Assembly (NCBI GenBank): GCA_902767915.1
Contig: CACXJE010000006.1
Coordinates: forward strand, 1-46,400
Origin: Oscillospiraceae bacterium
GTDB lineage: Bacteria > Bacillota > Clostridia > Oscillospirales > Oscillospiraceae
Reading direction: 5' to 3'
DNA length: 46,400 nucleotides
Below, in pieces: positions 19,719 through 45,955 of this stretch. A model generated the notes under the pieces. That model did no database searches, had not been told where the DNA came from, and saw only the letters and a program-made list of their open reading frames with translations. Positions within the stretch are counted from its first letter, which is position 1, and each line of letters starts with the position of its first letter. The position numbers were made by a program, and so were the translations under genes.

Positions 19719-19951
19719 TGAAAATGCGTGGATAAAGAGGAGTACTCCCCACGCTTCGCTGCAGAGAAGGGGCGGTTGGTGCAAGCCCTGCGGAGCCGGG
19801 AGGAAGGTCGCTTTTGAGCAGTCCGGCCGAAGGCCAGTAAGTCGGATCGGGTCCTCCCGTTACAGAGGCAGAGTGCCCGGCCCAGCCGGGAATTCAGGTG
19901 GTACCGCGGTATATTTTGCCGCCCTGAACAAGCGTTCGGGGCGGCTTTTTT
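19719..19951 (+). promoter_or_regulatory. T-box leader (valine, GUC specifier) with terminator
   Basis: A T-box that reads uncharged tRNA-Val. Stem I has the AGTA loop-E element (about 19742), the CAGAGAA bulge, and the GGTGCAAG distal loop (about 19779-19786). On the return strand the specifier loop reads GGAAGGTCGC, giving GTC (valine). The T-box sequence AGGTGGTACCGCGG lies at 19896-19909, and the terminator stem 19918-19929 with 19934-19945 is followed by six T residues. Uncharged tRNA would stabilise the antiterminator and switch on valS. The specifier agrees with the gene. Confidence 0.93.
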
Positions 19952-20015: not shown

Positions 20016-22658
20016 ATGGCACGCGAACTCCCCAAGACCTACGACCCGAAGCAGGTCGAGGACCGAATTTATCAATTCTGGATGGACAAGGGCTGCTTCA
20101 AGACCCAGCGCGACCCGGAAAAGAAGCCCTTCACCATCGTCATGCCGCCCCCCAACGTCACCGGCCAGCTCCACATGGGCCATGCCATGGACGCCGCCCT
20201 GCAGGACATTCTGATCCGCTTCAAGCGGATGCAGGGCTACGCCGCCCTCTGGGTCCCCGGTGTGGACCACGCCGGAATCGCCACCCAGATCAAGGTGGAG
20301 GAGGAGCTCCGCAAGGAGGGCCTGACCCGCTATGACCTGGGCCGGGAAAAGTTCCTGGAGCGGGTCTGGGACTGGAAGAACAGATACGGCAACCGCATCG
20401 TGGAGCAGCAGAAGCGCCTGGGCGCCTCCTGTGACTGGGACCGGGCCCGCTTCACCATGGACGAGGGCTGCTCCAAGGCCGTGCGGGAGGTCTTTGTGCG
20501 CCTGTATGAGAAGGGCCTGATCTACAAGGGCAGCCGCATCATCAACTGGTGCCCCCACTGCACTACCGCCCTGTCTGACGCCGAGGTGGAATACGTGGAG
20601 AAGCCCGGCCACCTGTGGCACATGCGCTATCCGCTCTCCGACGGCAGCGGCTATCTGGTGGTGGCCACCACCCGGCCCGAGACCATGATGGGCGACACCG
20701 GCGTGGCCGTGAACCCCAACGACGCGCGCTATCAGCATCTGGTGGGCAAGACCTGCATCCTGCCTCTGATGAACCGGGAAATCCCCATCGTGGCGGACGA
20801 CTACGTGGAGATGGACTTCGGCACCGGCTGCGTCAAGATGACTCCCGCCCACGACCCCAACGACTTTGAGGTGGGCCTGCGGCACAATCTGGAGTCCATC
20901 AAGGTCATTGCCGACAACGGCACCATCAACGAGAACGGCGGCCGCTACTGCGGCATGGACCGCTACGAGGCCCGGAAGGCCGTGGTGGCGGATCTGGAGG
21001 CCCTGGGCCTGCTGGAAAAGACCGAGGACTATTCCCACAGCGTGGGCACCTGCTACCGCTGCCACAACGACGTGGAGCCTCTGATCTCCGCCCAGTGGTT
21101 CGTGAAGATGCAGCCCCTGGCCGTGGAGGCCCTGCGGGTGGTGAAAGAAGGGGAGACCAAATTTGTCCCCGAACGCTTCACCAAGACCTACACCAACTGG
21201 ATGGAGAACGTCCGGGACTGGTGCATCTCCCGCCAGCTCTGGTGGGGCCACCAGATCCCCGCCTGGTACTGCGCCGACTGCGGCCATGTGACCGTCAGCC
21301 GCCAGGACGCGGTCTGCTGCGAGAAGTGCGGCAGCACCCGGATCGAGCGGGATCCCGACGTGCTGGACACCTGGTTCTCCTCGGCCCTGTGGCCCTTCGA
21401 GATCCTGGGCTGGCCCGAGAAGACCCCGGATCTGGACTATTTCTATCCCACCGACGTGCTGGTCACCGGCTACGACATCATCTTCTTCTGGGTCTCCCGG
21501 ATGATCTTCTCCGCCTGCGAGCACACCGGCAAGCCGCCCTTCCACACCGTGCTGATCCACGGCCTGGTCCGGGACGACAAGGGCCGCAAGATGTCCAAGT
21601 CCCTGGGCAACGGCATTGATCCGCTGGAGATGATCGAGCGCTACGGCTCCGACGCCCTGCGTATGAATATGATCACCGACAACAGCCCCGGCAACGACAT
21701 GCGCTTCTACGTGGAGCACTGCGAGGCCATGCGGAACTTTGCCAACAAGCTCTGGAACGCCAGCCGGTACGTGATGATGAACCTGGATCTGGAAAAGAAC
21801 CAGCTGCCCGCGCCTGAAAAGCTGGAGATCGCCGACCGCTGGATCCTCTCCAAGCTGAACCGCACCATCCGGGAGTCCACCGAGAACCTGGAAAAGTACG
21901 AGCTGGGCATGGCGGTCCGGAAGGTCTACGACTTCATCTGGGACGACTACTGCGACTGGTATATCGAGCTGACCAAGGCCCGCCTCTACGGCGACAACGC
22001 CGAAAGCAAGCGGACCGCCCAGCAGGTGCTGCTGTACGTGCTGGATCAGATCCTGCGGCTGATGCATCCCTTCATGCCCTTTGTCACCGAGGAAATCTGG
22101 CAGGCCATCCCCCACGAGGGCGAGGCTCTGATCCTGGCCAAGTGGCCGGAATATTCCGAGCAGATGAACTATCCCACCGAGGAGCAGCACATGGAGGCCA
22201 TTATGCTGGCCATCCGCACCATCCGCAACCGCCGCTCCGAGATGAACGTGCCTCCTTCCCGGAAGGCGGACCTCTATGTGGTCACCGACAAGGCGGAGAT
22301 CTTCTCCGAGGGCGTGCCCTTCATCACCCGTCTGGCCTATGCCGAGCAGGTCTTCGTGTCTGAGCAGGAGCCGGAGGGCCATGAGGACATGGCCCAGGCC
22401 ATCACCCCGGACGCCAAGCTCTATCTGCCCCTGGCCCAGCTGGTGGATCTGGAGAAGGAGCTGGCCCGGGTGGCCAAGGAAACCGAAAACGCGCAGAAGG
22501 AGATCGCCCGGGCGGAGGCCCAGCTGGCCAACGAGAAATTCGTGTCCCGGGCCCCGGCCAACGTGATCCAGGCCCAGCGGGAAAAGCTGGAGCAGAACCG
22601 GAAGCTGCTGGCCCAGCTGGCGCAGAGCGAGGAACGGCTCCGCAGACTGAAAAAATAG
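20016..22658 (+). CDS. valS: Valine--tRNA ligase
   Basis: An 880-residue class I synthetase that charges tRNA-Val (EC 6.1.1.9). Visible are the HIGH-type motif H-M-G-H (53-56) after P-P-P-N-V-T-G, the editing domain with [11 protein letters not shown] (about 220-230) and D-P-N-D-F (editing site), a zinc-ribbon-like pair C-x-x-C and C-x-x-C (about 420-445), K-M-S-K-S at 525-529, the anticodon-binding domain and a C-terminal coiled coil (about 810-880) as expected for ValRS. Full length. AAGGAGG site; controlled by the valine T-box. Confidence 0.98.
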
Positions 22659-43736: not shown

Positions 43737-44233
43737 GGATCGGCCACGGCTATGACGTCCATCGGCTCACCGAGGGACGGAATCTGATTCTCGGCGGCGT
43801 CCGGGTGCCCCACAGCCTGGGGCTGGACGGCCATTCCGACGCGGACGTGCTGACCCACGCGGTGATGGACGCCCTGCTGGGGGCTGCGGCCCTGGGAGAC
43901 ATCGGCCGCCATTTCCCGGACACGGATCCCCAATACAAGGGCATCTCCAGCCTGAAGCTGCTGGCGGCGGTCCGGGAGCTGATCTATGGCAAGGGCTATC
44001 GGATCTCCAACATCGACGTGACGGTGCTGGCCCAGAAGCCCAAGCTGGCGCCCTATATCGCGCAGATGGAGCAAAACCTCTCCCAGGTGCTGGGCCTGGA
44101 GCCGGGCCGGATCAACGTGAAGGCCACCACCGAGGAGCATCTGGGCTTTACCGGCCGGGAGGAGGGCATCGCCTGCCACGCGGTCTGCCTGTTGGAGGAA
44201 GCATCCCTCCGGGTGGTGCCGCTCCGGGGATAA
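43733..44233 (+). CDS. ispF: 2-C-methyl-D-erythritol 2,4-cyclodiphosphate synthase
   Basis: A 166-residue trimeric zinc enzyme of the MEP isoprenoid pathway (EC 4.6.1.12). The zinc ligands appear in G-Y-D-V-H-R-L (about 6-12) and [11 protein letters not shown] (about 34-44), with D-I-G-x-H-F-P-D-T-D-P (about 60-70) and the end T-T-E[12 protein letters not shown] (about 128-142). Normal family length. It overlaps ispD by ATGA; together they make consecutive-type steps in isoprenoid synthesis. Confidence 0.96.
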
Positions 44234-44238
44234 AGCCC

Positions 44239-44267
44239 TTGAAATTTGGAAAAACCTGTGCTATACT
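44239..44267 (+). promoter_or_regulatory. ABC-F leader promoter
   Basis: TTGAAA (44239-44244), 17-base spacer, extended TGC and TATACT (44262-44267). Transcription would start near 44274, just before the ribosome site of the two-codon ORF. Confidence 0.8.
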
Positions 44268-44290
44268 GCATACAAGAACGGAGGGATAAA

Positions 44291-44299
44291 ATGCGCTGA
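44291..44299 (+). CDS. Two-codon upstream ORF (Met-Arg-stop)
   Basis: ATG CGC TGA sits 5 bases after GGAGGG, a good ribosome site, at the very start of the expected transcript. It lies within the 5-prime strand of the long-range stem, so a ribosome paused there would open the stem. Very short upstream ORFs of this sort control some ABC-F resistance genes (for example Listeria lmo0919). Confidence 0.5.
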   Translation: MR

Positions 44300-44401
44300 G
44301 AATCCTGCTTTGATGATAGGGCGCGAGACGGCAGCTGCCGTCCGGTTTGGTGCGCCGTAAGCAGGAAATCACGCATTGCATCCGCCTGAAACAGGGGTAC
44401 T

Positions 44402-44434
44402 ATGGCTGCAAGTGGATTTCTTGCAGCCATTTTT
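44402..44434 (+). terminator. Leader terminator (attenuator)
   Basis: 11-bp perfect stem, 7-base loop and five T residues, ending 22 bases before the ABC-F start codon; most transcripts should stop here unless it is disrupted. Confidence 0.8.
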
Positions 44435-44455
44435 ATCAATTCAGGAGGAACCGTT

Positions 44456-45955
44456 ATGGCATTGATCTCTGTTCAAAACCTGACCTTCGGTTATGACGGC
44501 AGCCCGGAGCTGCTGTTTGAGGAGGTCAGCTTTCAAATCGACTCCGACTGGCGTCTGGGCTTTGTGGGCCGGAACGGCCGGGGGAAAACAACCTTTTTGC
44601 GGCTGCTGATGGGGGAGCTGGAATACCGGGGCAGCATCCGGGCCCCCATGGCCTTCGACTATTTTCCCTTCCCGGTGCCGGACGAATGGGAAACCGCCGG
44701 GGAAATCACCGGAAGGAGCTGCCCGGAGCTGCAGCGCTGGAGGCTGGAGCGGGAGCTGAGCCAGCTGGAGCTGGATCCGTCGGTGCTGGACCGGCCCTTT
44801 GCCACCCTTTCCAACGGGGAGCGGACCAAGCTGCTGCTGGCGGCCCTGTTTTTGCGGGAAAACCGGTTCCTGCTGATCGACGAGCCCACCAACCATCTGG
44901 ATCTGCAGGGCCGCCGGGTGCTCAGCCGCTATCTGCGCTCGAAAAGCGGCTTTATTCTGGTGTCCCACGACCAGGCCTTTTTGGACGGCTGCATCGACCA
45001 TGTGCTCTCCATCAACCGGGCCACCATCGAGGTTCAAAAGGGAAACTGCACCACCTGGCTGGAGACCCGGCGGCAGCAGGATGCCTTTGAGCTGGCCCAA
45101 AACCAGCGGCTGAAAAAGGAAATCTCCCGTCTGGAGCAGACCGCCCGGGAAAAGGCCTCCTGGGCGGACAGGTCAGAGCGGGAGAAGATCGGCGCCGGGC
45201 CGAACGGAAATGAGATGAACGCGGGCCGAAGACCCTATCTGGGCGAGAAGTCCAGAAAGGCCAACAAGCGGGCCAAGGCCATTGCCGGCCGGCAGGAGGC
45301 CGCCATCGAGGAAAAGAGCAGACTGCTGAAGAACATTGAAAAGGCCGACAATCTGCGGCTGCCCTGCCTGTCCTATCGCAGCGAGCTGCTGGCGGAGCTG
45401 ACGGACGTGACCGTGGATTACGGCGACGGGCCCGTGTTCCGGCCGGTCAGCTTTCAGATCCGCAGGGGAGACCGGCTGAACCTCATCGGCCGGAACGGGG
45501 CGGGGAAAACCAGCCTTCTCAAGCTGCTGACCGGAGAGGCTGCGCCCACCCGAGGCGCCGTCCGTCTGGCGGGCGGGCTGACCGTTTCCTATCTGCCCCA
45601 GGACGCTTCCGGCCTGTCCGGGAGTCTGACGGACTATGCCAGGCAGAACGGGCTGGACTATACCATGTTTCTGACCTTCCTGCGGAAGCTGGACTTTCAG
45701 CGCAGCCAGTTTGAGAAGCCCATGGAGCAGTTCAGCATGGGCCAAAAGAAAAAGGTGCTGCTGGCCCGCAGCCTCTGCGAGCCCGCCCATCTCTATCTCT
45801 GGGACGAGCCCCTGAACTTCATCGATATCCTCTCCCGGGGCCAGGTGGAGGACCTGCTGCTGGAGAGCAGCCCCACGATCCTGTTTGTGGAGCACGACGC
45901 GCGCTTCTGCGACCGGATCGCCACCGGCCGGATCTGCCTTCAAAGGGAGCCGTAG
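44456..45955 (+). CDS. ABC-F ribosomal protection protein, Lsa-like
   Basis: A 499-residue soluble protein with two ABC domains. First: L-G-F-V-G-R-N-G-R-G-K-T-T-F-L-R (about 35-50), signature L-S-N-G-E-R-T-K, Walker B L-L-I-D-E-P-T-N-H-L-D. The interdomain linker (about 190-310) is long and charged, as in resistance ABC-Fs. Second: N-L-I-G-R-N-G-A-G-K-T-S, signature F-S-M-G-Q-K-K-K, L-Y-L-W-D-E-P-L-N-F-I-D. The F-Y-F-P-type start, A-F-E-L-A-x-N segment and overall order match Lsa proteins, which push lincosamides, streptogramin A and pleuromutilins off the ribosome. AGGAGG site; regulated by the attenuator leader. Confidence 0.9.
   Translation: MALISVQNLTFGYDGSPELLFEEVSFQIDSDWRLGFVGRNGRGKTTFLRLLMGELEYRGSIRAPMAFDYFPFPVPDEWETAGEITGRSCPELQRWRLERELSQLELDPSVLDRPFATLSNGERTKLLLAALFLRENRFLLIDEPTNHLDLQGRRVLSRYLRSKSGFILVSHDQAFLDGCIDHVLSINRATIEVQKGNCTTWLETRRQQDAFELAQNQRLKKEISRLEQTAREKASWADRSEREKIGAGPNGNEMNAGRRPYLGEKSRKANKRAKAIAGRQEAAIEEKSRLLKNIEKADNLRLPCLSYRSELLAELTDVTVDYGDGPVFRPVSFQIRRGDRLNLIGRNGAGKTSLLKLLTGEAAPTRGAVRLAGGLTVSYLPQDASGLSGSLTDYARQNGLDYTMFLTFLRKLDFQRSQFEKPMEQFSMGQKKKVLLARSLCEPAHLYLWDEPLNFIDILSRGQVEDLLLESSPTILFVEHDARFCDRIATGRICLQREP

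Follow-up and report, generated by a model that had tools for sequence, protein, structure and literature searches.

Background

Several ABC-F genes are known to be controlled by an RNA leader that carries a short upstream open reading frame (uORF), among them vmlR of Bacillus subtilis and cplR of Clostridioides difficile (PMC9226507, PMC10201436, both as excerpted). The excerpted text of PMC10201436 gives the uORF consensus as MR[I/M] for cplR, MIN for vmlR, MK[L/Q] for vmlR2 and MAGN for LsaA, and its authors call for study of how the consensus relates to inducibility. The cplR leader has a short uORF beginning with Met-Arg in a 5' hairpin and a terminator before the ABC-F gene, and that terminator hides the Shine-Dalgarno sequence (SD) of the gene. 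It is induced by lincomycin and retapamulin. A cplR reporter loses its activity when the uORF start is mutated, and premature termination is described as not essential for induction (PMC10201436).

For vmlR an attenuation model has been proposed in which the uORF lies in an anti-antiterminator stem, an alternative antiterminator can form and the ribosome is arrested at initiation (PMC9226507, in the portion available). A pause hairpin and an SD-hiding hairpin are also described, and the uORF variants MDN, MDK and MRK also induce (PMC9226507). The uORF(MIN) sequence is called crucial for vmlR induction (PMC10201436). The lsaA gene of Enterococcus faecalis is likewise preceded by a uORF (PMC10201436). 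In the uORFs of are5sc and tiaA, lincosamides, streptogramin A and pleuromutilins are reported to arrest the ribosome at the start codon (PMC12421871, as excerpted).

Here we describe a leader from an Oscillospiraceae bacterium, found in a stretch of 46,400 nucleotides (the window; contig CACXJE010000006.1 of assembly GCA_902767915.1). The leader occupies 44239-44456, between ispF, which ends at 44233, and an Lsa-like ABC-F gene (44456-45955). It is very probably a transcription attenuator that senses the ribosome through a two-codon uORF, Met-Arg-stop. The experimentally studied parallels vmlR, cplR and are5sc/tiaA would favor this reading by analogy. A preliminary description of this DNA considered a short uORF buried in a 5' stem unusual, a view that the published uORFs MIN, MR[I/M] and MAGN do not sustain (PMC9226507, PMC10201436, in part).

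The likeness to each known system has its bounds. The uORFs of cplR (Met-Arg-Ile) and vmlR (Met-Ile-Asn) have three codons against two in the present leader, and the LsaA consensus MAGN differs from Met-Arg-stop in both sequence and length; the likeness to lsaA consists in the protein and the presence of a uORF. The gene SD is hidden by the terminator in cplR, whereas here it follows the terminator and may pair with 44382-44389. The resemblance to vmlR consists in the stem and the antiterminator. Induction by drugs, as in cplR, and arrest at initiation, as in vmlR, would apply here by analogy (PMC9226507, PMC10201436, as excerpted).

Anatomy of the leader

The promoter, ribosome site, two-codon ORF and terminator of the preliminary description are all located in 44239-44456, together with the long stem and followed by the ABC-F gene. 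All lie on the forward strand. The promoter (44239-44267) consists of TTGAAA, a 17-nt spacer and TATACT with an upstream TG. Its hexamers match at 10 of 12 positions, with one such site in the 2501 bases scanned against 0.4 expected, and the TG and TA of the -10 region are invariant in a genus alignment. Transcription would start near 44274. The SD of the uORF, GGAGGG (44280-44285), is invariant in all eight complete genus leaders that were aligned (mean column identity 74%) and stands 5 nt from the ATG of ATG-CGC-TGA (44291-44299).

The uORF and TCCTGC belong to segment 1 (44284-44308), the 5' side of the long stem P1, which is the anti-antiterminator according to folds and the paired cells of 86 leaders. 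Folds and alignments place an apical hairpin with the stretch GGTTTGGTGCGCC on P1 (44317-44357). Many leaders have a stretch of GGTTTTGTTGTGCC type on the 3' side of this hairpin, directly ahead of segment 2 (alignment A5). Segment 2 (44361-44383), which includes TTGCATCC, is both the 3' side of P1 and the 5' side of the antiterminator, as seen in folds and paired cells. Segments 3 and 4 form the intrinsic terminator (44402-44434), a hairpin of 11 pairs (44402-44430) with a T run (44430-44434). The terminator scan, with 4 sites against 2.7 +/- 1.8 expected, is by itself not significant; paired changes support the terminator, and the hairpin is kept in the eight aligned genus leaders, where 98.8% of the hairpin cells are paired. 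The 3' side of the antiterminator (44404-44424), defined by nascent folds with a blocked uORF and by paired cells, takes in the terminator 5' arm, the loop and most of the 3' arm. The SD of the ABC-F gene, AGGAGGA, lies at 44443-44449.

The gene encodes an ABC-F ribosome-protection protein of 499 aa. It scores 644.3 bits with the NCBIfam Lsa model NF000167, below the cut-off of 750, and 434.5 bits with the wider ribosomal protection-like ABC-F model NF000355, above the cut-off of 380; for this reason we keep the earlier term Lsa-like and do not call it Lsa. Its nearest solved relative is Lsa(A), and Lsa is nearer than VmlR-type chains. The reading frame is open back to an ATG within the terminator (44402), and automatic annotation may therefore choose a start 54 nt upstream of 44456, the position that the SD marks as the probable true start.

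No Rfam 15 family matches the leader at gathering score; at E values up to 10 the sole match is mir-2970 (E 2.3). Ten related loci gave tRNA and TwoAYGGAY matches, none at the leader. Elsewhere in the window, a T-box leader (RF00230, 129.9 bits) lies at 19720-19929, upstream of a gene starting at 20016. The first residues of its product resemble a valyl-tRNA synthetase.

Folding of the nascent RNA

The RNA from 44274 to 44440 folds at -70.1 kcal/mol (z -5.18), and none of 200 shuffles is as good. In the minimum-energy fold part of TTGCATCC (44376-44383) is paired with the uORF and GGAT (44284-44287), which overlaps the uORF SD, and the long stem buries the uORF and part of that SD. The claims that the uORF is one strand of a long stem and that part of TTGCATCC is locked in it thus hold. 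When the RNA to 44440 carries no block, P1 and the terminator each have probability 1.0.

The picture changes when bases up to 44306 (the uORF plus 15) are blocked. The minimum-energy structure of the nascent RNA at 44425 is then a single hairpin, 44361-44383 with 44404-44424. Its inner part, UUGCA:UGCAA, is absent at 44412 and present at 44416, and its outer part is GCAGGAAAUC:GAUUUCUUGC. An isolated pairing of TTGCATCC with the terminator arm, the antiterminator first proposed, gives way to this longer helix, in which TTGCA of TTGCATCC survives as the inner part. With the uORF blocked the terminator has a probability of 0.85 once 44430 is out and 0.58 on RNA to 44440. Because the terminator wins on longer RNA, the antiterminator is at best kinetically favored, and the model needs the order and speed of synthesis. 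As long as the nascent RNA ends between 44310 and 44372, the AUG is unpaired with probability 0.41-0.93; from 44378 the value is 0.01 or less, which suggests that the time for ribosome loading is limited. The SD of the uORF is unpaired with probability 0.27-0.98, with no clear trend.

Folds to 44480 bring in the SD of the ABC-F gene, which is partly paired when no ribosome is present and nearly all paired when the uORF is blocked, mostly with CCGCCTGA (44382-44389); in the blocked fold the terminator forms as well. Pairing of CCGCCTGA with the SD region TCAGGAGG (44441-44448) could mask the SD. TCCGCCTGA or a close variant occurs in all nine genus leaders and CAGGAGG in seven of the nine. A second, translational layer at this SD is therefore possible on the folding model. 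It is unlikely that such gating is the main mechanism and the terminator minor, as the cplR data might suggest: two genus leaders (L087 and L091) are without matching SD letters, several members have 81-114 nt from terminator to gene, and the blocked fold hides the SD more, the opposite of what induction would need unless 44382-44383 are held by the antiterminator.

The uORF within the genus

An orthologue of the ABC-F gene is present in 10 of 23 genus genomes, the one in the window and nine at 77-82% identity, and nine of the ten keep the Met-Arg-stop uORF. The eight aligned leaders all read AACGGAGGGATAA-R-ATGCGCT-R-AG, where the first R is A in the window only, so that the stretch from SD to stop varies at just two A/G positions. 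Six of the uORFs end in TGA and two (L086, L087) in TAA. The ninth leader (L084) keeps the SD and Met-Arg-stop and has an insert in the long-stem loop; the tenth orthologue (L090) has a terminator-like hairpin only, without such a leader. In L084 (3187-3429, minus strand) the apical-loop insert is about 85 nt, with GTGCGCCGCAAGC repeated at its ends. The terminator ends 24-25 nt from the gene in the window, L086, L088 and L091, and 81-114 nt from it in L083, L085, L087 and L089, with extra DNA between.

Model R1, built from the eight leaders, has strong matches (E <= 1.2e-23) in 9 of the 23 genus genomes, all just upstream of the orthologue. Three more genus matches score weakly (E 6.1e-5 to 8.8e-4), and one of them is antisense to a leader. 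In the 70 sources searched few leaders outside the genus score, the best being L172 (E 1.8e-7), and some matches are either short or on the antisense strand. The conservation from SD to stop in the genus leaders is not due to chance. The conservation of codon 2 may reflect the RNA and not the peptide, because CGC also pairs in P1.

Lsa-type leaders outside the genus

Lsa-type genes were found, at E 1e-120 or better, in 108 of 400 sampled family genomes and in 76 of 295 order genomes, two samples that overlap. Upstream DNA was examined for 105 of the 108 family genomes, leaving out three with incomplete gene starts. Outside the genus a uORF and terminator were called at 88 of 100 family loci, two of which were dropped later; the other 12, some of them short pieces, had no leader call. 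The uORF tally covers 122 leaders: 81 from the family with duplicates removed, 9 from the genus, 7 named loci and 25 at order level. For the last set 28 loci were taken, three of which had no assigned start, and near-duplicates (e.g. L238, L239) were kept. Most of these family and order leaders share the plan of SD, uORF, P1, antiterminator and terminator.

The uORFs range from two to seven codons. Ten leaders have 2 codons, 30 have 3, 5 have 4, 2 have 5, 48 have 6 and 27 have 7, which puts Met-Arg-stop among the shortest. The longer ones include MRK, MRN, MRNFSC and MINFSCK. Nine of the ten two-codon uORFs are MR and one is MI, and among the 122 leaders Met-Arg-stop is confined to the genus of the window. 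The MI leader (L173) has a weak SD and a start set by hand. In a protein tree of 77 genes, from which L173 is absent, a branch with support 99/90 separates the nine MR rows from all others and the three-codon uORFs require 8 changes, which fits repeated shifts in length and a single origin of Met-Arg-stop in the sample.

The spread of lengths bears on whether the switch is set by slow release or drop-off of fMet-Arg-tRNA at a minigene rather than by arrest at the AUG. An effect of a minigene on the translation of a toxin-antitoxin gene has been published (PMC8708949, in part), and in the genus the stop comes straight after codon 2 and is conserved as either TGA or TAA. Beyond the genus, on the other hand, leaders that share the plan mostly stop after 3 to 7 codons, so the stop position is not a general feature, and we regard this mechanism as distinctly improbable.

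The second residue is Arg in 68, Ile in 26 and another residue in 28 of the 122 uORFs. The calls depend in part on the picker, which required an SD-like site and 2-8 codons and gave a bonus for Arg or Ile at codon 2; about two dozen starts were set by hand and all order-level starts by eye. Without the bonus and the hand-set starts the pick is unchanged in 88 of 96 leaders, different in 4 and absent in 4, and of the 81 leaders with a single candidate 50 have Arg and 13 have Ile at codon 2. Lone uORF calls outside the genus can be chance, because 103 of 480 shuffled upstream regions also yield a short frame with an SD-like site. The frequency of Arg, including all nine genus leaders, might recall an attenuator in which scarce charged tRNA-Arg stalls the ribosome on CGC; given the leaders with Ile or other residues, the weakness of a single codon as sensor and an ABC-F gene as the target, we think this very improbable.

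A second leader plan, with a layout nearer to cplR, is seen at nine loci (L122, L150, L171, L233, L235, L244, L248, L249, L250). Its uORFs are MFIR, MHIR, MIG, MIR, MIIQ and MKNR, and in several of these leaders the SD of the main gene lies within the terminator. Outside Clostridia, an Lsa gene on a Paenibacillus urinalis plasmid (L253) has, by eye, a similar arm-and-terminator pattern upstream. Among lsa(E), lsa(B) and two other plasmid Lsa genes viewed in the same way, the family-like pattern was seen only in L253.

Switching and paired changes across leaders

The set used for folding tests was reduced from 104 to 96 leaders by removing five duplicates, L199 and L142 (wrong uORF or terminator call) and L004, whose uORF call is also MR and which sits within upstream coding-like sequence. 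A leader was scored as switching when blocking the uORF gained at least 4 spacer:terminator pairs. By this measure 78 of 96 leaders shift to the antiterminator in the nascent fold; when the spacer is shuffled, 44 of 480 do so. With a narrower segment 2 the count is 72 of 96, and 7 of 8 for the complete genus leaders, L083 failing with 2.0 pairs. The order-level set gives 23 of 25 against 22 of 125 shuffled.

In a swap test, segment 2 pairs with its own terminator loop and 3' arm at -15.0 kcal/mol, against -11.5 with those of other leaders, a difference reached by none of 2000 permutations. The median swap is beaten by 79 of 96 leaders and 95% of swaps by 20 of 96. This pairing was not fitted, since the choice of segment 2 went by its match to the uORF side and that of the terminator by its own hairpin; the result still contains the relatedness among leaders.

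Paired changes were sought in 86 leaders, aligned with MAFFT without structural information and with relatedness not removed; nine leaders were left out by name and one was lost to a length filter. The family alignment was used because variation within the genus is too small. P1 cells are paired in 84.8% (81.4 in shuffles; slid controls at most 53.1%), antiterminator cells in 91.5% (84.7; at most 69.0%) and terminator cells in 98.3% (86.0; at most 59.8%), each percentage being reached by 0 of 500 shuffles. All three helices are above all 500 shuffles also in cells with two-sided changes and in covariation score, and they outdo their slid versions in percentage paired and covariation score. The number of pairs with two-sided changes separates them less evenly: 6 of 8 in the terminator is reached by 0 of 500 shuffles, 6 of 8 in the antiterminator by 68, and 4 of 6 in P1 by 123. 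Paired changes in the genus alone are weak, the OFF score being reached by 27 of 500 shuffles and the antiterminator score by 119.

A short, predicted uORF with a ribosome site near the leader 5' end, an intrinsic terminator between uORF and gene and, in silico, mutually exclusive anti-antiterminator and antiterminator helices are the marks of an ABC-F attenuator, and this leader has all three, the helices being weakly marked in the genus alone. The preliminary description had looked to a conserved ORF and to paired changes for support; the uORF kept in 9 of 10 genus orthologues and the helices paired over 86 leaders provide it, the covariation at family scale and weakly within the genus. The attenuator it proposed is thus supported in silico by anatomy, conservation, three exclusive helices with paired changes and a nascent switch, with an antiterminator pairing longer than first drawn. 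That the leader has no sensor and is a plain terminator with 5' UTR structure, ATG-CGC-TGA being incidental, is scarcely credible, since the double use of uORF bases as stem bases, whose identity could be kept for pairing, and the short frames in shuffled regions stand against an SD, start and stop kept jointly in nine genus leaders, changes of TGA to TAA that preserve the stop, the uORF and terminator at 88 of 100 family loci and the excess of switching leaders over shuffles.

Proposed mechanism

For the transcription attenuator we infer that the uORF is translated, that a drug arrests the ribosome at its AUG and that this induces the gene; by analogy the cognate drug would be a lincosamide, pleuromutilin or streptogramin A. 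With no drug, the ribosome would read Met-Arg in one step and depart, and the emerging RNA would close P1 over the uORF. Segment 2 would then be locked, and the terminator would halt transcription ahead of the ABC-F gene. A drug at the peptidyl transferase center would hold the initiating ribosome at the AUG, where it would cover segment 1 with a footprint taken as +15. This would free segment 2, and UUGCA could pair with the terminator 5' arm as it emerges. The helix would extend outward through GCAGGAAAUC:GAUUUCUUGC during synthesis of the loop and 3' arm, the terminator would be delayed or prevented and the ABC-F gene would be transcribed. As the frame is only two codons long, what is sensed should be initiation, formation of the first peptide bond or release, and of these initiation seems the most likely.

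Conclusions

The regulatory kind is already known from vmlR and cplR, and what is new is the extra-short two-codon version. The suggestion of a new leader class fares accordingly: no Rfam 15 family covers the leader, and no paper on Clostridia Lsa-type leaders or on a Met-Arg-stop ABC-F uORF was found among open-licence PMC papers, but the mode of regulation is not novel. In the main text of two surveys of bacterial structured RNAs the terms 'ABC-F' and 'Lsa' are absent. The LsaA-type consensus MAGN is not matched by Met-Arg-stop (PMC10201436, as excerpted).

Met-Arg-stop could be a minimal working antibiotic sensor, in three-way switches that stand before Lsa-type genes in Clostridia and are absent from Rfam. 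We hold this tentatively, as a fair possibility that falls short of the probable; it is made less likely by the crucial role ascribed to the uORF(MIN) sequence in vmlR (PMC10201436, in part). If it is true, a frame with one peptide bond would report only arrest of initiation, failure of the first bond or release, and, together with relatives of two to seven codons, this would mean that the peptide past the first bond has no role in sensing in this group. A natural minimal uORF makes it possible to ask if codons and peptide are read by ABC-F leaders in addition to the initiating ribosome. The leaders described here suggest that inducible ribosome-protection genes sharing an RNA switch outside Rfam are common in this bacterial family. 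Where resistance is read from genomes, the ABC-F gene may be there yet off.
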